Made by a program: the position numbers and the translations under genes
Part shown: positions 37,566 through 54,631 of the stretch, one piece after another
Position numbering within the stretch: position 1 is the first letter of the stretch
Layout: every line of letters begins with the position of its first letter
The notes under the pieces: generated by a model
What the model was told of the DNA's origin: nothing
The model's input: the letters and a program-made list of their open reading frames with translations, nothing else
The model's database searches: none
Assembly (NCBI RefSeq): GCF_006546625.1
Contig: NZ_VIAR01000008.1
Span: 1 to 64,000 of the forward strand
Length of the DNA stretch: 64,000 nucleotides
Direction: 5' to 3'
Source of the DNA: Haloflavibacter putidus
GTDB lineage: Bacteria; Bacteroidota; Bacteroidia; Flavobacteriales; Flavobacteriaceae

Positions 37566-37633
37566 TCAAGTATAACAAGGCATAAAACAAAAAACCCCGA
37601 TCGTAAGATCGAGGTTTCTGGTGGTGCCTCCAG
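37566..37633. repeat. attL: displaced tRNA-Phe 3' end and terminator
   Basis: Matches 54563-54631 with a few differences: TCAAGTATA, AAAACAAAAAACCCCGATC, AAGATCGAGGTTT and GGTGGTGCCTCCAG (37620-37633) are shared. On the minus strand it reads tRNA 3' arm, an encoded CCA, then a hairpin terminator. Because the tRNA is transcribed leftwards, this copy should be the original chromosomal 3' end pushed away by integration. Confidence 0.85.
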
Positions 37634-37761
37634 TACTGTTTAAGTCTTAACTAAAATATACTAAATTTACTTATACCTTACTTAAACCCTTTATTTATAA
37701 GGGTTTTTTTAATTTCTGTAATAAGAAATAATTAACTAAGTAATGTATAAATAAATACTTA

Positions 37762-37782
37762 TTTGTACCCTAAATTGTACCC
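37762..37782. repeat. Integrase arm-type repeats, left
   Basis: TTTGTACCC (37762-37770) and AATTGTACCC (37773-37782) are spaced by 11-12 bp, 33 nt before the integrase start. The same word pair occurs inside the right end at 54494-54514. This is the layout expected of arm sites for a tyrosine recombinase. Confidence 0.6.
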
Positions 37783-37814
37783 TTTTTTGTATCTTTATAG
37801 TAAAGGTAATAATT

Positions 37815-39125
37815 ATGATAGCAGTAGATAGAGCAAAGGGTACCGCTAGATTCGCATTCAAAAGTAAGCGAAAAGCAGAAGAAAACAAAAAGGAAAATTT
37901 TATTATTTATTTGTTTTTCACTTATGGTAATAAACGACTAAAATACTCTTCGGGTATTAAAGTAGGTTTTAACGATTGGGATTTCAATAAGCAAAGAGTA
38001 AAAAACAAGAACACAGTTAAGTTTAAAGACCATTACAACAGTAAACTTAATAAGCTTGAAAACGCTATTACAGAAGTTTATGAAGAGCTTCAAGAAGAAA
38101 GTGATAGTATTTCTCCACAGTTTCTTAAAAACCGCTTAGAGCTTAAATTACGAAATGAAGATGCCCCGGGTAAAACTCAAGAAAAACTAACATTTTCAGA
38201 ATTAATTCAAAAATTTATTGATTATAAAGATGGCAATATTGCAGAGGTCACTTTGCGCTCCTATAAACAAGCTAAGTCTCATATTCTAAGCTTCGAAAAA
38301 CAATTAGGTAGGAAATTAGAACTAGATGAAATTGACTCTTCATTTCATAAAAAGTTTACCGAATACCTTCAAAAAGAAAAGCAGTTTAGTAAAAATACCA
38401 TAGGCAAACATTTCAAAACGATTAAGACCTTTATGAACTATGCAGTAAGTGAAGGTTACACCAATAATCAAAAATTCAAATCCTCAGATTTTAAGGTTAC
38501 TAAAGAAATTACCACCGAGGTTTATTTAACTGAAGAAGAAATTCAAGCCTTTTACGATAAAGACCTTTCAAAATATCCTAAGCTTTCACACGCTAGAGAT
38601 ATATTTCTTATTGGCTGCTATACAGGTCAGCGAGTAAGTGATTTCAACAGCTTTAAAGAAGAGGATATTCAAATTATTGACGGGCAAGAATACTTCGTAA
38701 TTGTTCAAAAGAAAAATAAAAAGAGAGGTCGTAAAGTGTACTGTCCCATAACTAAGGAGATTAAAAACATAATGAATAGCCGCCATAACGGTAAACCACC
38801 AAAAAGAATACCCGATAAAGATTTAAACGACTACATTAAGCAAATAGGGCAGATGCTAGAACTTGATTCTTTAGAGGTAAAAATTAAATGCGAATACACG
38901 AAAGCAGGAAAACAAGAGGTAGATTATATTGAAAAATACAATTTAGTAAAATCACATACTGCAAGACGAAGCTTTGCGACTAATAAATATAAAGCAGGTA
39001 TGCCAGTTTATGATATAATGCATTTTACAGGACATACCACCGAAAAAGAATTTTATAAGTATATTCGAATCAAAGATGAAGAAAGAGCTACTCATATATT
39101 AAAGAGCGGTTTTTTTAATGTTTAA
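37815..39125 (+). CDS. int: Tyrosine-type site-specific recombinase / integrase
   Basis: A 436-residue integrase of the Bacteroidota phage/transposon type. It has an N-terminal arm-binding domain (about 1-115), a SAM-like core-binding domain (about 125-225) and a catalytic domain with Arg273 (CYTGQRVSD), His381 and Arg384 (HTARRSF), His407 (FTGHT) and nucleophile Tyr414 or Tyr416 (EFYKYI). It is complete. It sits at the tRNA-distal end facing inwards and is probably responsible for insertion at tRNA-Phe. Confidence 0.95.
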   Translation: MIAVDRAKGTARFAFKSKRKAEENKKENFIIYLFFTYGNKRLKYSSGIKVGFNDWDFNKQRVKNKNTVKFKDHYNSKLNKLENAITEVYEELQEESDSISPQFLKNRLELKLRNEDAPGKTQEKLTFSELIQKFIDYKDGNIAEVTLRSYKQAKSHILSFEKQLGRKLELDEIDSSFHKKFTEYLQKEKQFSKNTIGKHFKTIKTFMNYAVSEGYTNNQKFKSSDFKVTKEITTEVYLTEEEIQAFYDKDLSKYPKLSHARDIFLIGCYTGQRVSDFNSFKEEDIQIIDGQEYFVIVQKKNKKRGRKVYCPITKEIKNIMNSRHNGKPPKRIPDKDLNDYIKQIGQMLELDSLEVKIKCEYTKAGKQEVDYIEKYNLVKSHTARRSFATNKYKAGMPVYDIMHFTGHTTEKEFYKYIRIKDEERATHILKSGFFNV

Positions 39126-39134
39126 AATAATTCT

Positions 39135-40022
39135 ATGAGAGATCAGGAAGTAATTAATAGATTAAAATTAGGTGTTCTTAATACAATTATCAAATCTAAA
39201 AATGCTGAGTATGCATACAGAATTTTAAATTCTAACGATAATAGAAAAGGGTCTATAGTTAAAATACCTAGTCACAGTGGTAAAATTTCTATAGATTCTG
39301 TAAATGCTATTAATAGAGAACAAAAGAAAAATCGAATTCTAAAAAATAATAAAACTAGAGTTTCTCGAATTTTAGAAAAAATGTATGATTACGAAGAATT
39401 TACGTTAGATTATTTCGATTTACGTTTTGATCTATATGCTAAAGAATTAAATGCTAAAAAAGAAAGATTTTTAAAAAAATATCCAGGCTTTGAAGAGAAA
39501 GATTTTTTTAAGTCAGAAATTAATTATTTCCAAAACCCAGAATCTAACAGATATTTTTTAGATAGCCAGCAAAATAAAATCTCTTACCATAAATATCTAG
39601 AGAATGATACCCATATTCTTGATTTGCACCAAAATAAAAAAATAGAATTTCTTAAAGAAAAACTTCAAAATAAGCCTGAAAGTGATAATGTAAAAACTTC
39701 TCAATCCCAATCACAAAAACAAGATTTAGAAAACAATGAGTATCCTCCAATTTTTAAATCCTATGAATGCTATCAAAAATTTATTTCACTTGCTGAGTTT
39801 ATGGAGATAAAATTAGATAATATCAACGCACGGAATAACCAAGCAAAACTCAATGGTATATGGCAAAGTAATAATGGTCAAAAGCTATTTTTGAAACATA
39901 CTGAAAAGCCAGAATATTTAGCTTTTTTAAATAAAAATTATAACTCAGAGTTTGAGACACGTTCTATGTCCTCTGGTAAAAAATACACGAATAGAGTTGA
40001 TGAGTATTTATCTTCTATTTAG
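39135..40022 (+). CDS. Hypothetical protein of the element
   Basis: A 295-residue, Lys/Asn/Glu-rich cytoplasmic protein that starts 9 nt after the integrase, hence probably co-transcribed. The middle (about 190-215) is a Gln/Ser-rich linker. The C-terminal ~85 residues (from PPIFKSYECYQKF to VDEYLSSI) look like a separate compact helical domain. No motif is recognised. Position suggests an integration or excision accessory protein, but this is a guess. Confidence 0.6.
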   Translation: MRDQEVINRLKLGVLNTIIKSKNAEYAYRILNSNDNRKGSIVKIPSHSGKISIDSVNAINREQKKNRILKNNKTRVSRILEKMYDYEEFTLDYFDLRFDLYAKELNAKKERFLKKYPGFEEKDFFKSEINYFQNPESNRYFLDSQQNKISYHKYLENDTHILDLHQNKKIEFLKEKLQNKPESDNVKTSQSQSQKQDLENNEYPPIFKSYECYQKFISLAEFMEIKLDNINARNNQAKLNGIWQSNNGQKLFLKHTEKPEYLAFLNKNYNSEFETRSMSSGKKYTNRVDEYLSSI

Positions 40023-40034
40023 TTATTTCTAGAG

Positions 40035-40092
40035 CGCATACATACCGCATATTTATCCACACATCTCGCATACCTTCCATATTTTCTGCATA
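40035..40092. repeat. Helically phased CGCATA repeats with a DnaA box
   Basis: CGCATA occurs at 40035-40040, 40046-40051 and 40067-40072, with TGCATA at 40087-40092. Spacings are 11, 21 and 20 bp, close to whole DNA turns. A perfect consensus DnaA box TTATCCACA lies among them at 40053-40061. This could be an iteron-type replication origin of an excised circle, or an operator for the HTH gene 46 nt downstream. Confidence 0.45.
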
Positions 40093-40137
40093 TAACTAAT
40101 TTATTTTCTTGCGATAGAATTTAAAAATCATACAACT

Positions 40138-40434
40138 ATGTCGCAGAAAATTATGACAGAAATCCACGGGATCTCTCCCGAAGAATTAAAAGAAAGCATC
40201 TTAACAGATGTAAAAAAAGAACTAGTAAACCTAGTCGAAAAACTCAACCTTTTTAACAAGCCTCAGGAAGAATTCTTGACAAGGAAAGAAGCAGCTAAAT
40301 TGCTTAAAATTTCCTTAGTTACAATTACCGATTGGAATAAAAAAGGAATTCTCAACCCCTACCGTTTAGGAAATTTAATTCGCTATAAGAAAAGTGAGTT
40401 AGAAGAAGCTATGGTTCAAATTAATCAAGAGTAA
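40138..40434 (+). CDS. Excisionase-family helix-turn-helix protein (1)
   Basis: A 98-residue protein. An N-terminal helical part (about 1-42) is followed by a MerR/HTH_17-type domain: FLTRKEAAKLLKISLVTITDWNKKGILNPYRLGN. Such proteins act as excisionases or regulators in Bacteroidota elements. The phased repeats at 40035-40092 lie directly upstream and are a natural binding site. The next gene starts 4 nt later and encodes a second HTH protein. Confidence 0.85.
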   Translation: MSQKIMTEIHGISPEELKESILTDVKKELVNLVEKLNLFNKPQEEFLTRKEAAKLLKISLVTITDWNKKGILNPYRLGNLIRYKKSELEEAMVQINQE

Positions 40435-40438
40435 TAGT

Positions 40439-40753
40439 ATGGGGAAGTTAGAAGAATTTTCCATCAACGAATGGAAGCAAATTAAAGCAGACTTAGAAAG
40501 TGTATTACAAGAACTTAAAAATGCAATACAAAACGACCCTAAGCTTATCATTATTGATAATGCGGACTTAATGAAAATCTTTAAAATAAGTCCAAGAACC
40601 GCACAACGATGGCGAGACCTTAACCTTATTGGCTATTCTAAAATTAGCGGTAACATTTTTTACACAATGCAAGATGTAATGAATCTTTACCAAGAAAACT
40701 ATGAAGAGCCGCGAAGTAAAATGAACCAAATTATAAAGGATAGGAAAAGCTAA
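40439..40753 (+). CDS. Excisionase-family helix-turn-helix protein (2)
   Basis: A 104-residue protein with a helical N-terminal part and an HTH_17-like domain (IDNADLMKIFKISPRTAQRWRDLNLIGYSKISG). Translationally coupled to the first HTH gene (4-nt gap). Tandem small HTH genes of this type are common in Bacteroidota mobile elements, where they control excision or replication genes. The hairpin-rich region that follows is a likely target. Confidence 0.82.
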   Translation: MGKLEEFSINEWKQIKADLESVLQELKNAIQNDPKLIIIDNADLMKIFKISPRTAQRWRDLNLIGYSKISGNIFYTMQDVMNLYQENYEEPRSKMNQIIKDRKS

Positions 40754-40773
40754 ATTCTAATGTTTATAAACAG

Positions 40774-40884
40774 ATATCAGTCTAAATTCACTGATATATA
40801 CACAATCAAGTTAGCCTAGTCAGGCAAGCTAATTCCATTATTTAATATCAATACCGCAAAGCGATTAAAAATCATCGCTAGGCT
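40774..40884. repeat. Hairpin-rich region before the polymerase-like gene
   Basis: Three inverted repeats occur within 110 bp: ATATCAGT/ACTGATAT (40774-40781, 40790-40797), TTAGC/GCTAA enclosing GCCT/AGGC (40811-40832), and AGCGAT/ATCGCT (40860-40865, 40874-40879). AGCCTAG near 40813 also recurs inverted as CTAGGCT near 40879. The block lies between the HTH genes and the polymerase-like gene, so an operator or replication start site is likely. Confidence 0.45.
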
Positions 40885-40910
40885 ACGTATTGTCTAAACT
40901 CAAATGAAAA

Positions 40911-42272
40911 ATGAAAGAATATTATATAATTAAACCCAGTACTTTAAATTTAGAACAACGATTAGAAAAATTCCCACCCGACTTTAAATTCTGTAAAGAC
41001 TATGCCTTATGGTTAATTAGTGAAATCATAAAAAAAATAGCCTATAAATTAGAAAATGAAGAGGTAGAAATATGGGTGCCATTATGTTCTATGATCGCTA
41101 AAAAGCATCCTTATAGCTATCGAAAACATTTAAGGTATTTATGTAATAACTTCCCTAATGTAGGTAATGTACTTTTTAGAAAAGAGTACACTAAAGGAAG
41201 TTGTTATTCTTATAGATTGTCACCTCATTTTTTCGGTCAAGAAGTAGAGACTAAAAAAATAACCGATAAAAAATTGCTTAACCATTTGAGACGTGATAAT
41301 TACCTGATGAGCAATAACGCATTCAGGAAAAATTACAAATTTCTAGGCAAGTATTTTAACGCAAAGTTGTCTATTCAAACTACCGAAGCGAACGAAAAAA
41401 ATAAAGCCTTGTTTGGTAATGAGTTTGATTACAGAAAACACTTATTTAATGCAGTACAAATTTGCGATATCGCTAATAAAGAATTTTGTATAAGCTATAC
41501 TTACAAGACAGATGGTAGATTGCATCATCAATTAACAAGGCTATCAAAACCATTTCGACAGTTTTTAAGATACGACGGTAAAAAACTAGCCGAATGTGAT
41601 GTGTCAGCTTCAGTACCAACGATATTAAGTTACTTGTTAAGCAATATGGTAATAGGTAGTAATCATCTAGATAATGTAATTAATTCTAATAAGTATTATT
41701 ATCGTCATTATATGTTCTGTAAAAGGGCGGTAGAGCCTATAAATAGTGAGATTGCTCTTTTCGCTCAACAAGTATTGTCGGGTAAATTTTATGAGCTGTT
41801 TATTGAAGATATGCAGAAACTTAATCATTTCAAAGTAACTATAAAAAAAGGTGAATATTGTTTTGAAAAAATAGATGATGATTCTGAAGTAGAAGAGGAT
41901 AAACAAAATTTAAGAAAAATTGTAAAAAAACAAATTTTGGCTATGTTTAATGCAAGACCCTCATATCATTTAAAAGCAGAAGCTGTTTTTAATCATCATT
42001 TTCCAACCATTCTAAAATGGTTAAAAACCTTTAAAAAAAGTAACCATAAATATTTTTCATATCTAACTCTACAGCTAGAAAGCTATTTTATGCTGAATAT
42101 CGTAGCAAGAAAATTCAATAAAAAGTTCAGAGGTAAGAAGCCGTTATTCACACTTCACGATTGTTTAATTACTACAGAAGATAATATTGATGAGTTACAT
42201 CACTTTATGAAAGAAACGCTTTCAGAAGCCTTATATTTTACTCCTATACTTAAAGTTGAAGTATGGGAGTAA
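40911..42272 (+). CDS. Putative family A polymerase-like replication protein
   Basis: A 453-residue protein without an obvious annotated domain, but with the ordered signature of the family A (PolA/T7) palm and fingers. TDGR at 200-203 matches the TGR motif. AECDVSAS (227-234, Asp230) matches motif A. R335-x3-K339-x6-F346-N347 matches the motif B pattern Rx3Kx6YG. LHD (His416, Asp417) matches motif C. Spacing is compatible with a minimal polymerase. No exonuclease domain is seen; the first ~195 residues are unlike PolA. Probably it copies the element's DNA or makes primers. Single-subunit RNA polymerase activity is the alternative. Confidence 0.6.
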   Translation: MKEYYIIKPSTLNLEQRLEKFPPDFKFCKDYALWLISEIIKKIAYKLENEEVEIWVPLCSMIAKKHPYSYRKHLRYLCNNFPNVGNVLFRKEYTKGSCYSYRLSPHFFGQEVETKKITDKKLLNHLRRDNYLMSNNAFRKNYKFLGKYFNAKLSIQTTEANEKNKALFGNEFDYRKHLFNAVQICDIANKEFCISYTYKTDGRLHHQLTRLSKPFRQFLRYDGKKLAECDVSASVPTILSYLLSNMVIGSNHLDNVINSNKYYYRHYMFCKRAVEPINSEIALFAQQVLSGKFYELFIEDMQKLNHFKVTIKKGEYCFEKIDDDSEVEEDKQNLRKIVKKQILAMFNARPSYHLKAEAVFNHHFPTILKWLKTFKKSNHKYFSYLTLQLESYFMLNIVARKFNKKFRGKKPLFTLHDCLITTEDNIDELHHFMKETLSEALYFTPILKVEVWE

Positions 42273-42346
42273 TAAACAAAAAAGGTTTAGCTAATAGAAT
42301 GATTTAAAAAATCTTAAATTTGAAACAAATACACCATAACTAAAGA

Positions 42347-45016
42347 ATGACCTCTACAGAAATTCAAGAAAAAGTACAGGAATTGGTAAACAACTTTAAT
42401 CCTGAAACTTTTATATACGACTTATTACGTGCCTATGGCATTTCTAAAGCTTCGATAACACGCTTGCAAAAGGGAGATTTTAACCTTGCTAAAAATGAAG
42501 GTGAAATCTTATATAAAAAGAAACTGTTATTTAAAGAAGCGAGTGAAGATGAGTTAATGGCATTGGTAGAAGATTTAAGCCAAGAAGAAAACCTAAAGCA
42601 TAATCCTAGGTTTGTCATTACTACCAATTACAAAGAGATAGCAGCAAAAGATACGCGTACAGGTAAAAACCTGCACGTTCCTATTGTAGATTTGCCCAAA
42701 AACCATAGCTTTTTCTTGCCCTGGGCAGGCCAAGAAGTGTATCAAGCCACGAATGAGAATGAAGCCGACCGTAAAGCTTCTTATCGTATGGCTAAGCTAT
42801 ACGATATTCTTATTGAAGAAAATCCAAACATTCTGGAAAATGGAGTGCACGATCTCAACCTATTCTTTTCACGTTTGCTGTTTTGTTTCTTTGCAGAGGA
42901 CACCAGTATCTTTCCCGAAGAAGGAATGTTTACCAATACCCTAATGCAGCATACCCAAAACGACGGCAGCGATGTCCACCTTTTTTTAGACGAGCTTTTT
43001 CAGGTGTTGAACCTAAAAGAAACCGAACGTAAAAATGTACCTGCACATTTAGACCAATTTCCTTATGTGAATGGAGGCTTATTTAAAGATAATTTAAGTG
43101 TGCCTAAATTTAATAAAGAGGCACGCAATATTTTAGAAGAAAGTGGTGATTTAGATTGGAGCCATATTAACCCCGATATTTTTGGCTCTATGATTCAAGC
43201 GGTGGTTAACCCAGACCAGCGTGGAAATTTAGGAATGCATTATACCTCTGTGCCTAACATAATGAAGGTCATTAAACCTTTGTTTTTAGATGAATTTTAT
43301 GACGAATTAGAAAACGCTAGAGGTAACGCCAAAAAGCTAAGAAAATTAGTAGAACGCATTAGCAAGCTAAAAATTTTTGATCCTGCTTGTGGTAGCGGTA
43401 ACTTTTTAATTATTGCCTATAAAGAACTCCGTAAATTGGAAATAGAAATTTGGCAAGCCATATTAGAAACCGAGAGCCAACAGAGTTTTATTTATTCTGA
43501 AATACAACTCACCCAATTTTACGGCATAGAAATAGACGACTTTGCCCACGAAATCGCAAAACTTTCCTTATGGTTAGCAGAACACCAAATGAATAAATAT
43601 TTCGAAAACCAACTAGAACTCGGGAAGTCTAACCCCATTTTACCTTTAAAAGCTTCTGGTAATATCACTTGTGCCAACGCCACCCGAATAGACTGGGAAG
43701 AAGTTTGCCCAAAACAAAAAGATGATGAAATTTATTTGCTAGGAAATCCGCCTTATTTGGGTTATGCTCGCCAAGATAAAGACCAAAAAGAAGATATGAA
43801 AGTGGTTTTTTCTTCATATAAAAGCTATAAAAAATTAGATTACATAAGCTGTTGGTTTTTAAAAGGTGCAAATTTTATTTGTCACACTCAAAATAAATTA
43901 GCCTTTGTGACGACTAACTCAATTACACAAGGTGAGCAAGTTGCTATTTTATGGCCATCTATTTTTAAAAAAGAAATAGAGATTGGTTTTGCGCATACCT
44001 CATTTAAATGGGAAAATAATGCTAAAGGTAATGCAGGAGTTTCCGTGGTTATAATAGGGTTACAAAATGAAAATAGTCCCACAGATAAATTTATCTATAC
44101 TGGATCAACAAAACTAGAGGCTAAAAGTATAAATCCATACTTAGTTGAAGCAAAAAATGTTTATGTCGAATCTAGAAATAATTCTATTTCATCCTTACCT
44201 AAAATGATTAAAGGTTGTTCTCCAGGCGATAACGGTAGTTTACTTTTAAGTACTGAAGAGAAGAATAAATTACTTGCAGATTTTCCAGAAGCTTCAAAAT
44301 TTATAAAGAAATATATAGGTGCCAGAGAATTTATGAAAGGCTTGGATAGGTATTGTATATTAGTAAATGATGAAGATTACGAAGAAGCTAGTAAAATTAA
44401 GGCTTTAAAAGAGCGTTTTCAAAAAGTAAAAGAGTTTAGGCTTTCAAGTAAAAAAGCAGCAACACAAAAAAAAGCAAAAACTCCATATAAGTTTGATGAA
44501 GATAAGTACGAACCTTTTGATTCTATTTTAATCCCGCAAACAGGTTCTGAAAGGAGAGAATATCTACCATTGGGTTATCTTAACAAGGATTATGTTATTT
44601 CTAATGCAGCCAGAATAATATATAATCCAGCTGTTTGGATATTTGGTGTATTATCTTCTAAAATGCATATGACCTGGGTCAGAGCGGTAGCAGGAAGACT
44701 TAAAATGGATATGCAATATAGTAATACTCTTTGCTACAACACTTTCCCTTTCCCTAAGATTAGCAAAGTCAAAAAAGCACAAATAGAAGAAAATGTTTTT
44801 GCGGTGTTGGAAGAGCGTGAAAAGCACCCCGAGAAAACAATGGCACAACTCTACGACCCCGATAAAATGCCGGCAGGCTTACGCCAAGCCCATATAGATT
44901 TAGATGCCGCCGTAGAACGCTGCTACCGCCTACAACCTTTCGATAACGACACCCAACGTTTAGAATATTTGTTTAAAGAATATGAGAAAATGGTGAAGGA
45001 GAATAAAGGGAAATAA
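42347..45016 (+). CDS. MmeI-like adenine-specific DNA methyltransferase lacking nuclease
   Basis: An 889-residue protein laid out like type IIL MmeI: N-terminal domain (about 1-160), helical spacer (LYDILIEENPN to MIQAVVNP), N6-adenine methylase with motif I FDPACGSGNF (344-353) and motif IV NPPY (467-470), target-recognition region (about 600-800) and a C-terminal helical domain. MmeI has a PD-ExK nuclease near residue 70-90; here that stretch (GEILYKKKLLFKEASEDE) has no ExK pair. It probably only methylates. Cutting would fall to the helicase/GIY-YIG pair downstream. TAAATTTG at 42315-42322 fits a -7 box. Confidence 0.82.
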   Translation: MTSTEIQEKVQELVNNFNPETFIYDLLRAYGISKASITRLQKGDFNLAKNEGEILYKKKLLFKEASEDELMALVEDLSQEENLKHNPRFVITTNYKEIAAKDTRTGKNLHVPIVDLPKNHSFFLPWAGQEVYQATNENEADRKASYRMAKLYDILIEENPNILENGVHDLNLFFSRLLFCFFAEDTSIFPEEGMFTNTLMQHTQNDGSDVHLFLDELFQVLNLKETERKNVPAHLDQFPYVNGGLFKDNLSVPKFNKEARNILEESGDLDWSHINPDIFGSMIQAVVNPDQRGNLGMHYTSVPNIMKVIKPLFLDEFYDELENARGNAKKLRKLVERISKLKIFDPACGSGNFLIIAYKELRKLEIEIWQAILETESQQSFIYSEIQLTQFYGIEIDDFAHEIAKLSLWLAEHQMNKYFENQLELGKSNPILPLKASGNITCANATRIDWEEVCPKQKDDEIYLLGNPPYLGYARQDKDQKEDMKVVFSSYKSYKKLDYISCWFLKGANFICHTQNKLAFVTTNSITQGEQVAILWPSIFKKEIEIGFAHTSFKWENNAKGNAGVSVVIIGLQNENSPTDKFIYTGSTKLEAKSINPYLVEAKNVYVESRNNSISSLPKMIKGCSPGDNGSLLLSTEEKNKLLADFPEASKFIKKYIGAREFMKGLDRYCILVNDEDYEEASKIKALKERFQKVKEFRLSSKKAATQKKAKTPYKFDEDKYEPFDSILIPQTGSERREYLPLGYLNKDYVISNAARIIYNPAVWIFGVLSSKMHMTWVRAVAGRLKMDMQYSNTLCYNTFPFPKISKVKKAQIEENVFAVLEEREKHPEKTMAQLYDPDKMPAGLRQAHIDLDAAVERCYRLQPFDNDTQRLEYLFKEYEKMVKENKGK

Positions 45017-45172
45017 CTAAAATTATATAAATGGAAACCACACAAACAAAACTATTAAAAACTTTACAGGAAGAAGAAAGGATAAAAAGAGTTTAAAGCA
45101 ACATTTTATACTGGCAACAAAAAAAGAAGTCTTAAATGATAAGAATATAATCTACTCAAAATTAGTTAGAAG
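45017..45172. other. Decayed spacer after the methyltransferase
   Basis: A short reading from ATG 45031 (METTQTKLLKTLQEEE) stops after 21 codons. Other frames carry protein-like pieces with stops. Probably remnants of a lost small gene. Confidence 0.35.
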
Positions 45173-45421
45173 ATGAAAATAAGTAGTATTCCAGGAACAA
45201 ACGATAAAACAATAATAGTAAGCGATATGGTAGAAACAACACTATATTCCTATAATACAAAGGTAACTGAATATGATGAAATGAATTGTGAGATGAAGGT
45301 TTTTGGTTGGTTTTCCGAAGAAACAGCACACCATATTAACCTGTTTTTATAAATGTTTGGTTATGATAGAATGAGTAAAGAAGAATTGATTGAGGAGTTT
45401 AATTTAACAGAAAATATTTAA
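45173..45421 (+). pseudogene. Small gene split by one in-frame stop
   Basis: ATG 45173 opens 59 codons ending VFGWFSEETAHHINLFL, then TAA at 45350-45352. The same frame continues at once with ATG and 21 more codons (FGYDRMSKEELIEEF) to TAA at 45419-45421. The two parts read as one 82-residue protein: a WFS..TA.HIN.FL..FG helix followed by MSKEELI. I recall similar small proteins from Bacteroidota mobile elements. A nonsense mutation is the simplest reading; two tiny coupled genes are the alternative. Confidence 0.5.
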
Positions 45422-45523
45422 AATTGAGCTATAAAAATTAGAATTAGCTTAATGCGAATAGGTTTAGTACTGATTAATTGTTTTATTGCACAAAACAAAG
45501 AAAATTTACAATAGTCAATTTCT
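45422..45523. other. Spacer upstream of the AlbA_2 gene
   Basis: AT-rich, no ORF. Contains TATTGCAC at 45484-45491, a half-site copy of the operator downstream. Confidence 0.3.
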
Positions 45524-45553
45524 TATTGCAAAAAAGTGCTATATTTTGCAATA
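45524..45553. promoter_or_regulatory. Palindromic operator TATTGCAAAA-N10-TTTTGCAATA
   Basis: A perfect 10-bp inverted repeat (45524-45533 and 45544-45553), 23 nt before the AlbA_2 gene. A half-site lies at 45484-45491, and TTTTG with an upstream TA (45542-45548) may be the promoter -7 box inside it. The position suggests autoregulation by the downstream DNA-binding protein. Confidence 0.55.
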
Positions 45554-45575
45554 GTGATTTAATAGATGCAAAATA

Positions 45576-47228
45576 ATGCAGCAAGAAGATAAAAATAGAG
45601 AATACAAAAGCATCAAAAAAGTTTTTGGTAAGAGTGCAGATTTAAAATCGTTGGCAGAGACCTGTGTGTGTTTGGCAAATGCACAAGGTGGGCAAATATT
45701 TATAGGCGTTGAAGACAAAACACTAAATCCACCAGAAAGCCAAAAGATAGATGTTCAAGACATAAATAAAGCATTAAAAAGATTACGCGATTTGACAGAT
45801 GGTGTAGGAATAGTTAATCAAGAAACAGTTATTGCAGAAAATGGAGGTGAATATTTAATTTTAAAAATATTGCCTTCGATGAAAACTATTGCTACAACTT
45901 CTTCAGGTAAAGTTTTTATAAGAGTTTCTGATAATTGTTTTTCAGTAAGTAGTGATGAGTTAACACATTTAGCAGCAGAAAAAAATGCTTTTCAATGGGA
46001 ATTGGTAGTTTCTCAAAAAATAAGATTGGATGAAGCAGATCCAGAAAAACTCAATTCAGTTCTTCTAGATATTCAAAAATCAGATAAGGTTTCAGATTTC
46101 ATTAAAAACAAGGAGCATTTTGAAATTTTAGAATTTTATCAATTAATAGATGCAGAGGGTTTTTTGACAAATCTTGGTGTTTTATGGCTTGGTAAACCTT
46201 CTCAACGCGCTCGATTGAGTTATCCTGTAACAGTCCAGTATATTGTATATAATGAGAAGGAAGAAAAAATTCGAAAAAAAAGTTGGCATTTCCATCAGTA
46301 TAATCCTAAAGAATTAGTTTTAGACATTGAAAAAGAGGCAGTAGAATTAGCGTATAGTTCAGAATTACCAGACGGTCTTTTTAGAAAAAATATAAGGCAG
46401 TATCCTAAAGAAGTTATTAGAGAGCTTTTGATTAATGCTATTGCTCATAAAAAATATACAATGTCAGGTGATATTTTTATTGAAGTTTATCCTGAAAAAT
46501 TAGTTATCACCAACCCTGGGGGTTTGCCATTGGGTGTCACGCCAAATAATATTCTACACGAAAGGCATAGAAGAAATCCACATCTAATACAAATATTGTC
46601 AGATTTAAACTTAATGGAAGGTGAGGGTTCAGGATATGATTTAGTTTTTGAAAAATTAGCTAGAGATGCTAAACCTTTACCTAATATAGAGAGTTCTTAC
46701 TCTAAGTTGTCGGTTACTGTATCTTCAATGACAATTAACCCTGATGCAGTATCGGTATTAGATTATATAGATAAACATTTTGATTTATCACAAAAAGAAT
46801 ATATAGCTTTGGGAGTAATAGCAACAGAAAAGAAAATTTTATCTACACAACTTGCTAGTAAATTACAATTGTCAGAAGAAGATAAAATGCGTTCTTGGGT
46901 AAATGGTTTATTAAGTAATAAAATAATCATAACGCAAGGCAAAAGAAAAGGTACTTCATATCTCTTAAATCCAGATTTATTTGCACAAGCTAAATTAGAT
47001 ATTACTCCTTCTCTTAAAACCTTAGAGCCTCATAAGATTGAGGCTTTAATTGTGGAAGATTTAAGATATAATGGTGAGAGTAAAATGTCTGAAATAAGAT
47101 CAAGAATACCAGAAATAGATTCAAAAGAATTACAGAAAACTGTTTACAAGCTAGTTAAAAATGAAATTTTAGATAAAAAGGGGTCAAAAAAAGACAGAAC
47201 TTATTTTTGTTCAAAAAAAAATAAATGA
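45576..47228 (+). CDS. AlbA_2 (Schlafen-type) ATP-binding regulator
   Basis: A 550-residue protein. The N-terminal AlbA_2 domain (about 1-120) has REYKSIKKVF and ETCVCLANAQGGQIFIGVEDK. The middle has a divergent HATPase-like region (VIRELLINAIAHKKYTMSGDIFIEVYPEKLVITNPGGLP, GEGSGYDLVFEK). The C-terminal part (from about 400) has winged-helix-like segments. Such proteins often sit in defence islands, many as regulators. It lies between the methyltransferase and the helicase and follows a perfect palindrome that it may bind. Confidence 0.82.
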   Translation: MQQEDKNREYKSIKKVFGKSADLKSLAETCVCLANAQGGQIFIGVEDKTLNPPESQKIDVQDINKALKRLRDLTDGVGIVNQETVIAENGGEYLILKILPSMKTIATTSSGKVFIRVSDNCFSVSSDELTHLAAEKNAFQWELVVSQKIRLDEADPEKLNSVLLDIQKSDKVSDFIKNKEHFEILEFYQLIDAEGFLTNLGVLWLGKPSQRARLSYPVTVQYIVYNEKEEKIRKKSWHFHQYNPKELVLDIEKEAVELAYSSELPDGLFRKNIRQYPKEVIRELLINAIAHKKYTMSGDIFIEVYPEKLVITNPGGLPLGVTPNNILHERHRRNPHLIQILSDLNLMEGEGSGYDLVFEKLARDAKPLPNIESSYSKLSVTVSSMTINPDAVSVLDYIDKHFDLSQKEYIALGVIATEKKILSTQLASKLQLSEEDKMRSWVNGLLSNKIIITQGKRKGTSYLLNPDLFAQAKLDITPSLKTLEPHKIEALIVEDLRYNGESKMSEIRSRIPEIDSKELQKTVYKLVKNEILDKKGSKKDRTYFCSKKNK

Positions 47229-47326
47229 AAAATAAAATAGAAAATAAAAAAGGCTAAACCCTTGATTTTATTGATGTTGTTTATTTTCGTTTTATTTTCA
47301 TACTTATTTTCTAATAAAAAAAACAA

Positions 47327-49297
47327 ATGCCAGATTTAGTAAAGGTCTATTATAAACAGACAGGAAAGAGTAAAAAAACCAATGAGTTGGGTATGCGAGA
47401 AATGCAAGAAAGAGCATTTGAGGCAAGAACAGCACAATATTTATTGATAAAAGCTCCTCCTGCATCAGGGAAATCTAGAGCATTAATGTTTATTGGCTTA
47501 GATAAATTGCGTAACCAAGATATTAAAAAAGTAATTGTAGCGGTTCCTGAACGTTCTATTGGTAGTTCTTTCGCACCAACAGAATTAAAAAAATACGGTT
47601 TTTTTGAAGATTGGCAGCCAAATCCTAAATACAACCTTTGTACGCCTGGCGGTGAAAAGTCTAAAGTAGATGCCTTCATTAACTTTATGAATAGTAAGGA
47701 AGAAATTCTTATTTGCACACACGCTACACTGCGTTTTGCATTTGATGCTATTGATGAAAAACATTTTAATGATACCTTGATTGCTATAGATGAATTTCAT
47801 CACGTATCAGCCGAAGGTACAAATAGGCTTGGGAGTGTATTAAGTTCTATTATGGCAAAATCAACCGCTCATATAGTTGCAATGACAGGTTCTTATTTTA
47901 GAGGAGATAGCATTCCTATTCTATTGCCCGAAGTAGAAGCACAGTTTATAAAAGTTAAATACGATTATTACGAACAGCTTAATGGTTACGAATATTTAAA
48001 ATCTTTAGGAATAGGTTATCATTTTTACCAAAGAAAATATACAACTGCCATTCACGAAGTTTTAGATGAAAATAAAAAAACCATTATTCATATTCCTAGT
48101 GTAAATTCTGGAGAATCTACCAAAGAGAAATATGAAGAGGTTGGTAAGATAATAGATACACTGGGCGATATAGAATACCAAGACCCTAAAACTGGGGTGA
48201 TTTACGTAAAATCGCATAAAACAGGCAATCTTATAAAAGTAGCTGATTTAGTAAATGACGATCAAAAATCGAGAGATAAAATTCAAAACTATTTACGCAA
48301 TGTAAATGCTCCAGAAGATATCGATATTATCATAGCTTTAGGGATGGCAAAAGAAGGTTTTGATTGGCCATATTGCGAGCAAGCCTTAACGGTAGGTTAT
48401 AGGGGTTCATTAACAGAGATTATTCAAATCATCGGTAGGGCTACAAGAGATAGCGACAATAAAACACACGCTCAATTCACCAATTTAATCGCTCAACCCG
48501 ATGCCCAAGATGATGAGGTAAAACTTTCAGTCAATAATATGCTAAAAGCAATTACCGCTTCTTTATTAATGGAGCAGGTGTTAGCGCCTAATTTTAAATT
48601 TAAAGCGAAATACCCTGAAGTAGAAGATAATGAATATGAAGTAGATCGTGAAGATGGAACACAGGCAAATGAAGAGGAAAACACTATACACATCAGAGGC
48701 TTTAAAGAACCTTCAACAGCAAGAGTAGAGCAAATTATCGAATCAGACTTAAACGATTTAAAAGCAAAAATTTTGCAAGATAATGATATGCTCAAAGCAA
48801 TGCCGAGTGAGACTTTAGAACCAGAGGTAATTAATCAGGTGTTAATACCTAAAATTATTAAAGAAACCTATCCTGAACTTTCAGATGATGAAGTAGAAGA
48901 AGTAAGACAACATATTGTAGTAGATTCAGTTATTAAAAATGGAAGTATTGAAGAGCAAGGAGATAGAAGGTTTATCAAAATGGCAGATACCTTTGTGAAT
49001 ATAGATGAAATACATATCGATTTAATAGATAGTGTAAACCCGTTTCAAAAAGCATTTGAAATATTATCCAAATCAGTAACAGCACCTGTTTTAAGAACTA
49101 TCCAAGAAACCATAGATGCGTCTAGAATTCAAATGACGGAACAGGAAGCTATTATCTTGTGGCCCAAAATAAAAGCCTGGGTGCAAAAAACAGGTAAAAA
49201 TCCTGATATTAAATCTTTAGAGCCAAAAGAAAAAAGAATGGCTGAAGCAGTGATTTTCTTAAAAGAACTAAAGCGTAAACAAAAACAAAATGTCTAA
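47327..49297 (+). CDS. DEFH-box superfamily 2 helicase
   Basis: A 656-residue ATP-dependent nucleic-acid motor. Walker A APPASGKS (43-50), motif II DEFH (155-158), motif III MTGSYFRG, helicase C with LGMAKEGFDWPYC and motif VI QIIGRATRDS (367-376). From about 400 the protein is acidic and helical, and it ends in a Lys-rich tail. The layout resembles translocases of restriction and DISARM-like systems rather than Cas3. Its stop overlaps the GIY-YIG gene by 8 nt, so the two proteins are made together and probably form a complex. Confidence 0.88.
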   Translation: MPDLVKVYYKQTGKSKKTNELGMREMQERAFEARTAQYLLIKAPPASGKSRALMFIGLDKLRNQDIKKVIVAVPERSIGSSFAPTELKKYGFFEDWQPNPKYNLCTPGGEKSKVDAFINFMNSKEEILICTHATLRFAFDAIDEKHFNDTLIAIDEFHHVSAEGTNRLGSVLSSIMAKSTAHIVAMTGSYFRGDSIPILLPEVEAQFIKVKYDYYEQLNGYEYLKSLGIGYHFYQRKYTTAIHEVLDENKKTIIHIPSVNSGESTKEKYEEVGKIIDTLGDIEYQDPKTGVIYVKSHKTGNLIKVADLVNDDQKSRDKIQNYLRNVNAPEDIDIIIALGMAKEGFDWPYCEQALTVGYRGSLTEIIQIIGRATRDSDNKTHAQFTNLIAQPDAQDDEVKLSVNNMLKAITASLLMEQVLAPNFKFKAKYPEVEDNEYEVDREDGTQANEEENTIHIRGFKEPSTARVEQIIESDLNDLKAKILQDNDMLKAMPSETLEPEVINQVLIPKIIKETYPELSDDEVEEVRQHIVVDSVIKNGSIEEQGDRRFIKMADTFVNIDEIHIDLIDSVNPFQKAFEILSKSVTAPVLRTIQETIDASRIQMTEQEAIILWPKIKAWVQKTGKNPDIKSLEPKEKRMAEAVIFLKELKRKQKQNV

Positions 49298-50492
49298 AGA
49301 TAAATTAAGCATAGAGGATATTTTTGAAGATGACGATTTAGGTATTTTAAAAGATACTTCAAAGCAGTCGAACGTAAAATCTACAGATCAACGTTTAATT
49401 GAATCTTTTGAAGAAATCAATGTTTTTGTAGATGAAAAAGAAAGAGAACCAGAACAAGGTAATGGTATTTCAGAAATGCGTTTGTATTTACGCTTAAAAG
49501 GCTTTAGAGAAAATGATAAAAAGAAATTTGCATTAAAAGATGTTGATAGGCATAATTTATTGTTTGAGCCTAAAAAAGTTGAATCTGTAGCCGATATTTT
49601 AGAAGATGATGATTTCGGTTTGTTAGCAGATGATGAAGGAGACGCTAGTATTTTTGACTTTAAACATACTCCTAAAGAAAAAAAAGAAGCCGATTTTGTA
49701 GCCCAACGTAAAGCAATGTCAGAATCAGAATTCGAAAAATATGACAAGCAGTTTAAAAGAGTACACCAAGAAATCAAATTAGGTTTACGCAGTTTAAAAC
49801 CCTTTAAAAATGCAGAAAAAAACTTAAAAGAAGGAAAATACTATATTCTTGATGGTGTTTTATTGTACCTAGAAGTAGGCGATATTTCAGAGGCAGTTAG
49901 AGAATTAGGAGACAGAGTTAGAAAAGACGTAAGAACAAGAACTGTTTTTGATAATGGCACGTATAGCAATATGCTTTACAGGTCTTTAGCGAAACAATTA
50001 TATAATAATGGTAAAGTAGTAACTGATTTAGAAAAAGATAGCGAGAAAGAGCTATTTTCAAATGTAGAACAGTTAGAAGATGATGATAAGGAAACTGGTT
50101 GGATTTACGTATTGAAATCTAAATCAACTCACTCAGAAATAAGTAAGCTTAAGAACTTATATAAAATAGGTTTCTCGACAGTTCCCGTTCAAAAAAGAGT
50201 TCTTAATGCTAGAAATGAAGCAACTTATCTCAATGCAGAAGTAGAAGTAGTAGCAACTTTTAAATGTATAAATGTAAATACTCAAAAGTTTGAAAATTTA
50301 ATCCACCGCTTTTTTAGTCAAGCACAATTACAAATAGATATTTACGATAAAAATAAAAACAGAATAACCCCAAGAGAATGGTTTGTGGTACCATATCCAA
50401 TCATCGAAAGAGCAATAGGATTATTTAATACAGGAGAAATTATCAACTATCACTACGATTTTCAAAAAGAAAGGATTATTAAAAACAGCTAA
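49290..50492 (+). CDS. GIY-YIG (T5orf172-type) nuclease partner of the helicase
   Basis: A 400-residue protein. The C-terminal GIY-YIG fold (about 268-375) has WIYVLKS and YKIGFS for the GIY and YIG strands, a following Arg (KRVLNAR), Glu/His in FENLIHRFF and REWF. The N-terminal ~130 residues are acidic and hold two copies of a short motif, DIFEDDDLGIL (10-20) and DILEDDDFGLL (102-112), probably docking peptides. The gene overlaps the helicase gene by 8 nt. Likely the cutting subunit of the restriction cassette. Confidence 0.85.
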   Translation: MSKDKLSIEDIFEDDDLGILKDTSKQSNVKSTDQRLIESFEEINVFVDEKEREPEQGNGISEMRLYLRLKGFRENDKKKFALKDVDRHNLLFEPKKVESVADILEDDDFGLLADDEGDASIFDFKHTPKEKKEADFVAQRKAMSESEFEKYDKQFKRVHQEIKLGLRSLKPFKNAEKNLKEGKYYILDGVLLYLEVGDISEAVRELGDRVRKDVRTRTVFDNGTYSNMLYRSLAKQLYNNGKVVTDLEKDSEKELFSNVEQLEDDDKETGWIYVLKSKSTHSEISKLKNLYKIGFSTVPVQKRVLNARNEATYLNAEVEVVATFKCINVNTQKFENLIHRFFSQAQLQIDIYDKNKNRITPREWFVVPYPIIERAIGLFNTGEIINYHYDFQKERIIKNS

Positions 50493-50674
50493 TAATTACA
50501 ATTGTTCGTGACAAAAAATAATTTCAAAGGAGTGATAATTAACAAAAAGCATTTTTACGGAAATTTTATCAAGCTGATTATCAGCGCTTAAAAACATATA
50601 GGTGAATGTAGTTAAAAATTTAGGCGAGTGATAAAAAATATAATAAATAATATAAGTGCAGTGTGACAATTACT
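50493..50674. other. Spacer with a short palindrome
   Basis: No gene. GCTGAT/ATCAGC (50573-50578, 50580-50585) forms a tight inverted repeat. The only TTTACGGAA word of the whole element lies at 50554-50562. Confidence 0.35.
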
Positions 50675-52258: not shown

Positions 52259-52359
52259 TAAACTTTATTCTCCCCAAGCAAATAAGTATAACTTCCATTG
52301 CATTACAGCTATACCTATTTTGCTTTCCGCGCAGTAAAAGCTATAATACTTTCATTACA

Positions 52360-52497
52360 TTACAGTATTACAGCCATTACTTTTTGCCTTTGCGCTTTTT
52401 CAAATCCGTTTTCAAAAGTATAATTATAACTCAAATCCATAATACGTGGCAGGTAATAAGGTGTGCCTCCGTCATTCTGTTTTGTTTCATAATACAT
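52360..52497 (-). pseudogene. Decayed protein fragment
   Basis: A 45-codon frame starting MYYETKQNDGGTPYYL and ending RQKVMAVIL has natural protein composition. Just upstream, KVGFIDDLK reads in a different frame, and one shift would join it to DLAAMYYE. Probably the C-terminal remnant of a lost gene, family not recognised. A functional small protein is less likely. Confidence 0.35.
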
Positions 52498-53528
52498 AGC
52501 TGCAAGGTCTTTAAATCATCAATAAAACCCACCTTAAAATAGCTTATACAATACATTTTTAGCATACAACATAATAAACCTTGCATCTACCATTCATACG
52601 CTTTTTACGCCTTCCGTCCTCAGGCTTCAAAAGCTATTCATTTGTAGTATTACACACACGCCATTCCTACAGCACCCGCAGCTACTCTTGCACCCAAACC
52701 CATAAAGATATGCTACGCAAGTATATAAGTTGGGTGCAACCGCTGCTTATTAATGTGCGAGCCTGCGATCACAACGGGCTAATAGGTTTGTCACAGTAAT
52801 TGAAACATCCATATTTGCATAAAGCTTATTTGTTTTACTCCCGATGCTCGTAAAAAAACAAGCCTTATTGCAAACCGCGCAAAAGAGCTGATTTTACACT
52901 TCATTACAAGCACTTCGCCCTGCACTAACCAATAGGTAAATATATCATTATAGTTATGTTTAATAAGGCAAATAAACAGGATAAAAATTCATTTCAAATC
53001 GTGCAAGCTCCGATGCTTTTCATTCCGTTGCAAAACAGCCCTTTCCTTCCCCAACAGATTCAATTACTGCGCCAAACCAGTGTAAACATAGCACTAGCGG
53101 TATTACATACCTCTAGCTAGTACACCCGTTGTTCAACTCGCAGTCGGCTCGCGCCTTTAGATTACCTGCCGAATGATAATAAGGTCTTATAAAAATTGAT
53201 GATTATTAATCCAGTTAAATTATATAACAATCTCAAACATAAAGCAAAGGTACAGGCGTGCGGATGCGAGAGCCACAAGGGTACGCTTTCGCCTGTTGAG
53301 CAAAAATCTCCACCCTTACGGGTAGTATTTTCACTCACAGCCCTTGCACCAATCGCACCGTTCCTGTGTAAACGGCAATATGTTTAATATTTTATATACA
53401 GCTCACATCTGCAACTGGTGGTTGCACGTGGGCACACGTTCAAAAGGCAATCCTTTTGGCATAAATGTAAATTATAAAGGCTATAAAGAGCTTTCAATAC
53501 GCATTTTTTGGCTAGAAGTTTGCCTTTC

Positions 53529-53559
53529 AGAGCTCCCATTTTAGGGGGCTCTTTTTTTT
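53529..53559 (+). terminator. Strong terminator ending the structured region
   Basis: AGAGCTCCC (53529-53537) pairs with GGGGGCTCT (53544-53552, one G-T pair), followed by a T-run. There is no ORF that it obviously terminates, which argues for an RNA transcript from the preceding region. Confidence 0.8.
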
Positions 53560-53795
53560 AATCTATTAAAAACCTTGAATTAATCAATTTGCATTATTTC
53601 TATCTTAACTTCCTCCTAAACTCTAAATAGCAATTTTTAAGTGAAATGACTTCTGATGAGACATAATGCCAATAGCAACCAAGAATAAACGAAAAAGACT
53701 CTTTATGCCGATATTTGCAAATAAGTATTCTAAGCCGAATTTTCTCCGTACCAACTCCTAATTAAATGCGTATTAACCTAAAAATTATAAATAAA

Positions 53796-54437
53796 ATGGG
53801 AAAAATTAATCAAGGAATTCTAGGTGGATTATCTGGAAAGGTCGGAAATGTAATTGGTGGTAGCTGGAAGGGCATCGATTACTTAAGAATTAAGCCATCT
53901 AGTGTAGCAAACCCGCGAACTAAGGGGCAAGTTAATCAACGTACAAAATTTGCGGTTACACTTCAGTTTTTACAAGCGGTAAAACCTTTCATCAAGGTCG
54001 GTTATAAAAAATTAGCCATAAAAAAAACAGAATTCAATGCTGCAATGTCATTTATTTTAAATAATGCGATTACAGGGATTGAGCCAAATTTTGAAATTGA
54101 TTATCAGAATGCTAAATTAAGTAGGGGTGCTTTATCTGAACCACTAAATGCGGCAACAGACCTGACTGTTCCAGGGCAAATTACATTTAACTGGGATGAT
54201 AACTCGGCTGAAGGTAATGCGAATGAAAACGATAAAGCGATGCTTTTAGCTTATAACCCTTTGAAACGCGAGTCAATTTCGCTCTTAAATGGTGCTCAGA
54301 GGGATGCAGGTGCAGAAATAATCACTATACCATCATCTTACTCAGGAGATGATTTGGAGCTGTTTATGGCTTTTATCTCAGAGGATGAAACAGAATTATC
54401 CAACAGTATATATTTAGGGTCTGGTACGGCTGCTTAG
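53796..54437 (+). CDS. DUF6266 family protein
   Basis: A 213-residue protein of a Bacteroidota-specific family. Recognised by the Gly-rich start MGKINQGILGGLSGKVGNV and IKPSSVANPRTKGQ. ATG 53796 is chosen because the family begins MGKI; an upstream ATG at 53766 adds ten unmatched residues. The remainder is beta-rich with a likely Ig-like domain (about 115-213) and no signal peptide. Last gene before the right attachment site, with its own terminator. Function unknown. Confidence 0.82.
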   Translation: MGKINQGILGGLSGKVGNVIGGSWKGIDYLRIKPSSVANPRTKGQVNQRTKFAVTLQFLQAVKPFIKVGYKKLAIKKTEFNAAMSFILNNAITGIEPNFEIDYQNAKLSRGALSEPLNAATDLTVPGQITFNWDDNSAEGNANENDKAMLLAYNPLKRESISLLNGAQRDAGAEIITIPSSYSGDDLELFMAFISEDETELSNSIYLGSGTAA

Positions 54438-54458
54438 GAAAAAAATATATACTGCTTT

Positions 54459-54488
54459 AACCGCTTCAAATTGGAGCGGTTTTTTTTG
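54459..54488 (+). terminator. Intrinsic terminator of the DUF6266 gene
   Basis: AACCGCT (54459-54465) pairs with AGCGGTT (54475-54481), extended by two more pairs, then seven Ts. Confidence 0.85.
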
Positions 54489-54493
54489 CTCTT

Positions 54494-54514
54494 AATTGTA
54501 CCCTTAATTGTACC
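54494..54514. repeat. Integrase arm-type repeats, right
   Basis: AATTGTACCC (54494-54503) and AATTGTACC (54506-54514), spaced by 12 bp, match the left pair at 37762-37782. Confidence 0.6.
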
Positions 54515-54562
54515 TTCATTAAAAAAAGATAGTATAAAATATTCCCAAAAAACCCTCAAAAG

Positions 54563-54631
54563 TCAAGTATAGTAGGGCTTAAAACAAAAAACCCCGATCA
54601 AAAGATCGAGGTTTTGCGGTGGTGCCTCCAG
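54563..54631. repeat. attR: tRNA-Phe 3' end and element-supplied terminator
   Basis: Counterpart of 37566-37633. The 14-bp identity GGTGGTGCCTCCAG is at 54618-54631, inside the tRNA acceptor/T arm. Differences from attL include the base after ACC in the tRNA tail (CCG here, CCA in attL). Confidence 0.85.
54584..54615 (-). terminator. tRNA-Phe terminator
   Basis: On the minus strand AACCTCGATC (54613-54604) pairs with GATCGGGGTT (54599-54590, one G-U pair) over a TTTT loop, followed by a T-run. A near copy is at attL. Confidence 0.8.

Follow-up and report, generated by a model that had tools for sequence, protein, structure and literature searches.

The window, by which we mean the whole stretch of 64,000 nucleotides of Haloflavibacter putidus DNA that was analysed, contains an integrative island of ~17 kb at a tRNA-Phe gene. 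Within the island lies an ORF of 453 aa (40911-42272, + strand), present in a single copy in its genome, that carries family A polymerase motifs. The features of the island are as follows.

37566-54631, no strand: integrative island, ~17 kb, at tRNA-Phe; direct repeat at both ends and an empty site
37566..37633, no strand: attL, direct repeat with a copy of the tRNA-Phe 3' end; repeat and empty site
37815..39125, + strand: tyrosine integrase, 436 aa; Pfam Phage_integrase 1.3e-10, Phage_int_SAM_5 1.8e-17
39135..40022, + strand: 295-aa ORF of no recognised family; without a match in Pfam, PHROG or PADLOC and without a homologue cluster
40138..40434, + strand: small HTH_17 protein, excisionase/MerR-like; Pfam HTH_17 8.6e-11, cluster c3 (13 loci)
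40439..40753, + strand: second small HTH_17-like protein; HTH_17 3.6e-5, under the Pfam cut-off
40753..40910, + strand: conserved non-coding block with predicted stem-loops at 40774-40797 and 40849-40892; conservation and DNA fold
40911..41264, + strand: residues 1-118 of the polymerase ORF, predicted winged-helix domain; AlphaFold2 model of residues 1-128 and fold matches
41295..42269, + strand: residues 129-453, family A polymerase part; D230, R335, K339, H416, D417, AlphaFold2 and VIA-align
42347..50492, + strand: exchangeable cargo, comprising an MmeI-type IIG restriction-methylation enzyme, an AlbA_2/HATPase protein, a DEAD helicase and a T5orf172 protein; Pfam/PADLOC
52267..53181, no strand: right-end segment common to the Salegentibacter island L123, no ORF > 90 aa; 84% and 86% identity in two segments
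54563..54631, no strand: attR, covering the 3' end of tRNA-Phe (54618-54692, - strand); repeat, tRNA and empty site

A reading made from the sequence alone had proposed an integrative element, and the ends of the island bear this out. The att repeats (37566-37633 and 54563-54631) are identical in 60 of 69 columns and involve the tRNA-Phe 3' end, and in a sister genome (G690, locus L179) the same flanks are joined over one repeat copy, an empty site. Short tandem repeats ending in TTGTACC lie near both ends, at 37758-37791 and 54491-54514, and are possibly arm-type integrase sites. The element had also been called non-conjugative. Consistent with this, no conjugation gene was found in the nine element proteins scanned with Pfam, a scan that lay outside the ORFs at 50663-52258 and 53766-54437.

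The closest relative is found in Salegentibacter sp. R32 (L123), where the polymerase is 85% identical. By blastn against L123, att and the integrase match at 92%, a short piece of the 295-aa ORF at 78%, the HTH genes and the polymerase at 89%, and three right-end pieces at 84, 86 and 77%, while nothing matches between 42275 and 52267. At the cargo position, L123 carries a type III restriction-modification system and a DRT2-like reverse transcriptase. A homologue of the second small HTH_17-like protein sits in the same place in L123 (cluster c54), and the 295-aa ORF is, as far as seen, outside the conserved backbone. The island's right end has a stretch of ~1.5 kb (52260-53760), the segment 52267..53181 included, that contains no ORF > 90 aa and had no match in Rfam, yet is partly 84-86% identical to the Salegentibacter island.

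This neighbourhood was compared across 53 polymerase loci, made up of 51 genome loci, the window and one plasmid. Of the 53, 47 contain the integrase cluster, which lies within 4 kb in 44 of them. In 33 loci it precedes the polymerase gene in the same orientation, in 11 it follows that gene on the other strand, and 3 loci have another arrangement. The six loci lacking the cluster are the plasmid (L031), two short contigs (L128 and L129), L165, L169 and L172. Small HTH clusters rank after the integrase (c2 in 20 loci, c3 in 13), being HTH_17 by the members tested. Among the large neighbours in nine other loci, restriction-modification was seen in six (L123, L124, L141, L145, L155, L157) and a ResIII/DEAD protein in L130, while the large neighbours in L147 and L154 are limited to an AcrB-type transporter and a TonB receptor and are probably chromosomal. 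Because the integrase, HTH and polymerase genes recur while the restriction/defence neighbours differ between islands, we regard these three as the backbone. The backbone genes that were scanned include no further recognisable replication gene. A D5_N helicase occurs in 2 of 30 genomes, those of L142 and L155; if contig C1 is the chromosome of L155, the distance there is ~1.4 Mb.

The polymerase gene had been described as lying between two origin-like repeat blocks, an arrangement that was not confirmed on either side. The upstream block (about 40023-40130) has CGCATA-like repeats and, among them, a perfect DnaA box at 40053; we considered this block as the island origin and rejected it, since L123, the nearest relative, lacks it. 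From base composition, 1.1 copies of TTATNCACA would be expected in the island, and two are present. On the downstream side, the gap between the polymerase gene and the next ORF is only 74 bp, and a repeat search of 39950-42400 found no block on that side of the gene.

The non-coding DNA directly before the gene is conserved. With 40736-40912 as query, L123 matches at 89% over 177 columns, and L124, whose protein is 60% identical, matches at 80% over the adjoining 101 columns before the gene; no such match was found in L125 or L126. The DNA fold of 40753-40910 (158 nt) has a z of -2.97, with 1 of 200 shuffles as stable, and in L124 the arms of the stem at 40849-40892 are kept, by eye, while its loop varies. 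This stem-loop block is a candidate for a binding site, an origin or a leader.

Motifs and predicted structure

In the 453-aa protein, the family A motifs are found where the sequence-only reading had put them: TDGR at 200-203, D230, R335-x3-K339, F346-N347 and LHD at 415-417. We aligned the window protein with 67 of 73 representatives (alignment A5, 68 rows; L037, L038, L040, L145, L170 and L171 left out). R203, D230, Y294, K339, E390, H416 and D417 are invariant in 68/68 rows, which argues that the motifs did not arise by chance; the polymerase reading, which had singled out D230, K339 and D417 for a check on homologues, was not refuted by it. Position 335 is R in 51 rows, K in 15 and another residue in 2. 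Four residues after the motif B Lys, 48 of the 68 rows have F or Y, and E. coli Pol I has F there. The spacing R-x3-K-x3-[FY]-x3-[FY] is the same as that of R754, K758 and Y766 in E. coli Pol I. Position 347 is F or Y in 62 rows; the window belongs to the 6 rows with N, so its N347 is the rarer state; N is found in the window's own clade where most relatives have F or Y.

In E. coli Pol I, E710 serves sugar selection. Equivalents of E710 and of E883, two Glu residues common to E. coli Pol I and T7 DNA polymerase, are absent from all 68 rows: the residue five after the motif A Asp, equivalent to E710, is Q in 58, I in 5, V in 4 and H in 1, and the residue after the motif C His-Asp is S in 55, C in 10, A in 2 and G in 1. 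Judged from the alignment, the absence of both would fit a relaxed choice of sugar.

Database searches returned little for this family. The window protein gave only sub-threshold chance matches in Pfam, PHROGs, PADLOC and PDB sequences, and none of the 68 family members matches Pfam DNA_pol_A (PF00476) at E 0.1. Pfam RNA_pol matches one of the 68 (0.0041), PHROG 4756, which is without function, matches seven, and the A5 profile gave a single chance match (0.012) among PDB sequences.

The whole protein was modelled by AlphaFold2 with a pLDDT of 89.8 and a pTM of 0.87. In VIA-align, residues 129-453 of the model superimpose on the apicoplast DNA polymerase (apPOL) with Z 15.1 over 256 residues at an rmsd of 3.7, followed by Klenow (Z 13.8), T7 DNA polymerase (13.7) and Pol theta (13.5). 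The best 50 VIA-align rows are DNA polymerases, below which RNA polymerases may rank. Foldseek agrees with a polymerase fold, but with low TM-scores of 0.2-0.4 over the whole chain, and mitochondrial RNA polymerases are present among its matches. This structural check had been set beforehand, and the predicted right-hand fold, matching apPOL, Klenow and T7 DNA polymerase, came through it. The right-hand fold is thus well supported as a model, and the ORF is, by sequence and predicted fold, a genuine family A polymerase.

The N-terminal ~195 residues had been described as unrelated; a winged helix is the better reading of this N-terminal part. Modelled alone, residues 1-128 reach a pLDDT of 91.7 and adopt an alpha/beta arrangement whose elements follow one another as in a winged helix. 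Among solved structures, the best matches are 4pql (Z 6.6), 4pt7 (6.2) and 5kbj (5.6), with ORC chains at 6.0-6.1, all below Z 8, where similarity can reflect nothing more than a shared arrangement; Foldseek E values against initiator domains are poor (0.57-1.2). The first three are N-terminal domains of plasmid initiators, presumably of the RepA_N family, and have the same winged-helix shape as residues 1-118, although the match is a weak one. These initiators are not known to carry a polymerase part. The model of residues 1-118 thus weakly resembles a winged helix, with plasmid-initiator domains ranking first. In the N-terminal alignment (A6), L103 was left out and L093 is too short in this region. 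The protein had further been said to lack an exonuclease domain, and as far as tested it does: there was no Pfam match to one and none in the structure match lists for residues 1-128, whose model matches winged helices.

Relatives in bacteria, plasmids and phages

In genomes of the same family, 25 of 299 passed E 0.01 and 22 of 299 hold a member by the family HMM, the difference being the loci L022, L024 and L025, which the HMM did not list (L025 has a phmmer E of 9.5e-5); the HMM was built from members, L025 left out, and so finds its own members by construction. In a phylum-wide sample, 16 of 395 genomes passed E 1e-5. The 51 loci in named genomes comprise, judged by their titles, 50 from Bacteroidota and one from a MAG of Rhodobacteraceae. 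In one genome (G269, L018/L026) the polymerase gene is split into two overlapping ORFs of 264 and 232 aa.

Members or similar proteins are also found on plasmids. A Hymenobacter plasmid (NZ_CP060788, L031/L185) has two modules, with an initiator and ParA, and with the polymerase near an annotated nucleotide-binding protein; we rejected this plasmid as proof of a replication role, given that it has its own initiator. Small plasmids of Calothrix (AP018296, L230) and Polaromonas (NZ_MG869621, L231) each carry a TV-Pol-like protein and a resolvase- or recombinase-type gene. The Calothrix ORF crosses the start of the record and has no matching gene in the annotation table, and the Polaromonas plasmid has its own initiator and ParA.

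Two queries against viral contigs gave 7 and 63 loci, partly on the same contigs, whereas the window protein alone found none. With a phage member as query, 50,697 phage records yielded six matches at E 1 or better, all in records of 595-735 kb. We examined 20 phage records with relatives, chosen mainly for length; near-identical proteins are included (L057, L100), and the IMG/VR contigs may be fragments. Sixteen of the 20 encode a family B polymerase, one further record (LR756511) has both a family A (PF00476) and a family C (PF07733) polymerase, and three, possibly fragments, have none of families A, B and C. Because a separate polymerase is usually present (17 of 20 records), the phage relatives look accessory. 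In LR756511, a 595-kb phage, the member (L033) adjoins a 428-aa DNA_pol_A protein (1.2e-19), at 7458-8618 and 8618-9901, and by their sequences the pair appears to be two compact family A polymerases side by side.

Two gene clusters accompany the phage enzyme, one of ~446 aa (cluster 2) and one of ~179 aa (cluster 3), each present at 42 of the 70 loci from viral and phage collections, a set in which one contig is represented more than once and a few loci are probably bacterial islands. Genes of both clusters flank the polymerase in the six maps examined (L062, L072, L076, L084, L087 and L095). The cluster representatives had no Pfam or PHROG match, and the proteins may be partners of the phage polymerase.

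Of the 68 sequences in a FastTree tree, 36 are labelled phage and 32 bacterial (the latter including L034, L035 and L039). One clade (0.998) unites 28 phage members, and the largest purely bacterial clade holds 22 (0.894). The window groups with eight sequences counted as bacterial (0.992).

Comparison with described family A polymerases

The sequence-only reading did not recognise this type of protein as described, and we likewise considered an undescribed polymerase type. This idea was rejected. Compact polymerases of family A from mobile elements and viruses, including those of Bacteroidetes, have been known since 2008 as TV-Pol, described by Iyer and colleagues (PMC2579912), and divPolA2 was described in tailed phages in 2024 (PMC11348598). 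A 2026 survey of bacterial polymerases divides family A into PolA1-3 and a minor group (PMC12926913). In a literature search that mostly excluded subscription journals, we recognised no paper that deals with this family, with its winged helix or with its occurrence in huge phages.

Profile comparison places divPolA2 nearest. Aligned by hhalign with five divPolA2 sequences (AUR84708 and four found with it), A5 reaches a probability of 97.3 and an E of 1.9e-11 over 353 columns, with the motifs in register. Against a TV-Pol-like set the probability is 38.1 and the E 3.3e-4 over 385 columns; this set comprises MAP_030, the pH8N and Calothrix proteins and a near-copy of MAP_030, its assignment to TV-Pol being partly judged by motif. 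Phage LMM01 is named as a TV-Pol carrier in the TV-Pol paper, the text of which does not give the gene (PMC2579912), and the plasmid proteins of Polaromonas and Calothrix in the set were found with MAP_030 of LMM01. The TV-Pol and divPolA2 sets reach 0.5 against each other. Among the controls, thirteen unrelated families did not exceed 0.8, and two reversed decoys reached 0.1. Against Pol I, A5 reaches 7.6 and against T7-type RNA polymerases 3.4, both low and from shallow profiles; these values say little, because the control comparison of Pol I with T7-type RNA polymerase also failed (0.1).

Single-sequence results were weaker. With Z set to 1000, the A5 HMM found Barba30A (1.5e-5), 2L372D (9.6e-5) and CoeS (3.8), and did not find AUR84708 or PH357 at E 10. 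Among TV-Pol-like proteins, it gave 0.016 for Calothrix and 0.027 for pH8N, while MAP_030 of LMM01 had an E of 1.3 in one run and was not listed at E 10 in another. Viral scans with the Polaromonas protein and with AUR84708 found no relatives. By these sequence comparisons, the closest described group is divPolA2, and TV-Pol appears less close.

The present protein shares with divPolA2 a family A palm with its catalytic residues, the lack of a 3' exonuclease, a length of ~430 aa, an N-terminal globular domain and, as regards its phage relatives, coexistence with PolB. The two differ in that divPolA2 was described in phages, whereas the window member sits in a bacterial island, and in that motif C of AUR84708 is FDE. 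For the divPolA2 N-terminal domain, its authors found no match, whereas here that domain models as a winged helix.

With TV-Pol, the protein shares lambda-type integrase neighbours, restriction-modification surroundings, an extra N-terminal domain (in a subset of TV-Pol), the hairpin Arg (R203, 68/68), the two palm Asp residues (D230 and D417, 68/68) and RxxxK in the fingers (K339 in 68/68; position 335 R in 51, K in 15). The model has beta-hairpin strands at 192-197 and 203-205, with R203 conserved in 68/68, and helices at 136-146, 157-171 and 174-188, the region relevant to the two-helix antiparallel thumb of TV-Pol. TV-Pol, however, has a conserved fingers Asp, whereas in A5 no Asp beyond D230 and D417 is invariant or 90% conserved, and we place the protein beside TV-Pol, not inside it, because this Asp was not found. 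The N-terminal domain of TV-Pol was predicted to be all-helical, in contrast to the alpha/beta model here. TV-Pol is further described as having either D5 helicase linkage or an N-terminal domain, the two being mutually exclusive (PMC2579912), and here a D5 helicase is found in only 2 of 30 genomes.

The CcPol polymerase of SCCmec, as Bebel and colleagues showed, primes in vitro together with its partner MP, an OB-fold protein that priming requires, and adjoins a helicase gene (PMC7581432); the CcPol-MP finding was extended by Rice to PolA-SSB pairs of Bacillota (PMC10061031). These systems, as there described, resemble ours in having an element-borne family A catalytic subunit, a recombinase in the element and restriction-modification cargo. 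CcPol differs in needing MP and in its helicase neighbour, whereas the upstream neighbours of the island polymerase are HTH_17 proteins; CcPol is likened here by description, not by sequence. E. coli DNA polymerase I and T7 DNA polymerase share the fold and the spacing R-x3-K-x7-[FY] with our protein, which differs in having no exonucleases and no equivalents of E710 and E883.

Possible roles of the polymerase

We favour, at about even confidence, the reading that the protein is the replication-starting polymerase of the ~17-kb island. This reading is drawn from the frequent company of an integrase and the absence of another recognised replication gene in the backbone, together with the initiator-like N-terminal domain, the conserved stem-loop block and the precedent of primases; the TV-Pol paper itself predicts priming plus synthesis (PMC2579912). 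Also in its favour are the predicted right-hand fold with its conserved catalytic residues, the exchange of cargo around a lasting backbone, the closeness to divPolA2 and TV-Pol and the missing equivalents of E710 and E883. In such a scheme, the integrase and a small HTH protein would excise the island from tRNA-Phe. The polymerase would then bind DNA via its N-terminal winged helix, perhaps at the stem-loop block upstream of its own gene, and its exonuclease-free family A palm would make and/or extend the first primer on the opened template, after which host helicase and replisome would complete the circle. We infer a replicative or primer-making role, priming included, as well as the enzymatic activity of the polymerase, its DNA target and the excision and replication of the island. 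Several observations speak against this reading or leave it open: the coexisting polymerases in phages, the initiators that the Hymenobacter and Polaromonas plasmids have of their own, and the missing helicase partner (D5_N in 2 of 30 genomes). Further points against it are the need of CcPol for an OB-fold partner in priming, the absence of the upstream block from L125 and L126, the winged-helix match below Z 8 and N347 in the window.

If the protein does not start replication, it might be a repair, gap-filling or lesion-bypass polymerase that aids survival of the element or phage. This is the role that the mostly accessory position of the phage relatives beside a family B polymerase (16 of 20 records) and the lack of a proofreading domain would suit, and repair is one option offered by the divPolA2 authors (PMC11348598). 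We nevertheless consider it unlikely: the usual partner in the islands is an integrase (47 of 53), a pairing seen more typically in a replication module, the host has a Pol I of its own, and a DNA-binding winged helix would be unexpected for gap filling. The same authors also considered an RNA polymerase role (PMC11348598), and a single-subunit enzyme transcribing the element, like T7 RNA polymerase, would account for the absence of Glu five residues after the motif A Asp, for HDS in place of HDE at motif C in 55 of 68 rows, for the mitochondrial RNA polymerases among the Foldseek matches and for the one member of 68 that matches Pfam RNA_pol (0.0041). The structural comparison points the other way, its best 50 VIA-align rows being DNA polymerases (RNA polymerases may rank lower), as do the F or Y four residues after the motif B Lys in 48 of 68 rows, where E. 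coli Pol I has F, and the hhalign value for T7-type RNA polymerase, 3.4 as compared with 7.6 for Pol I, both low and from shallow profiles. Transcription of the element is thus rather improbable in our view.

The surroundings of the gene raise a different thought, namely a defence effector polymerase comparable to anti-phage reverse transcriptases, given that the islands carry defence genes and one of them a DRT2-like reverse transcriptase. The polymerase, however, belongs to the backbone and not to the cargo, relatives are carried by phages, including six records of 595-735 kb, and PADLOC gave no match, so a defence role seems very improbable. Equally little speaks for a catalytically dead polymerase fold that serves solely as a DNA-binding initiator; the window has N at position 347, where 62 of 68 rows have F or Y, but R203, D230, K339, H416 and D417 are invariant in 68/68, and we would be surprised to find the fold inactive.

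The replication-start reading can be taken further, to a one-protein replication starter that joins an initiator-type winged helix to an exonuclease-free primase-polymerase, has its own origin at the stem-loop block and makes the first primer with no helicase or SSB protein dedicated to it; one and the same machine would operate in Bacteroidota defence islands and in some of the largest known phages. This bolder form is a tentative proposal that we rate as rather unlikely. If right, it would provide a testable mode of action for polymerases of the TV-Pol/divPolA2 kind, in which winged-helix origin recognition is fused to a family A palm, and the small islands, whose hosts are ordinary bacteria, could serve to test it. 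It would also bear on partner-free priming by family A polymerases, and defence-carrying Bacteroidota islands would be linked to phages of up to 735 kb by one replication-type gene.
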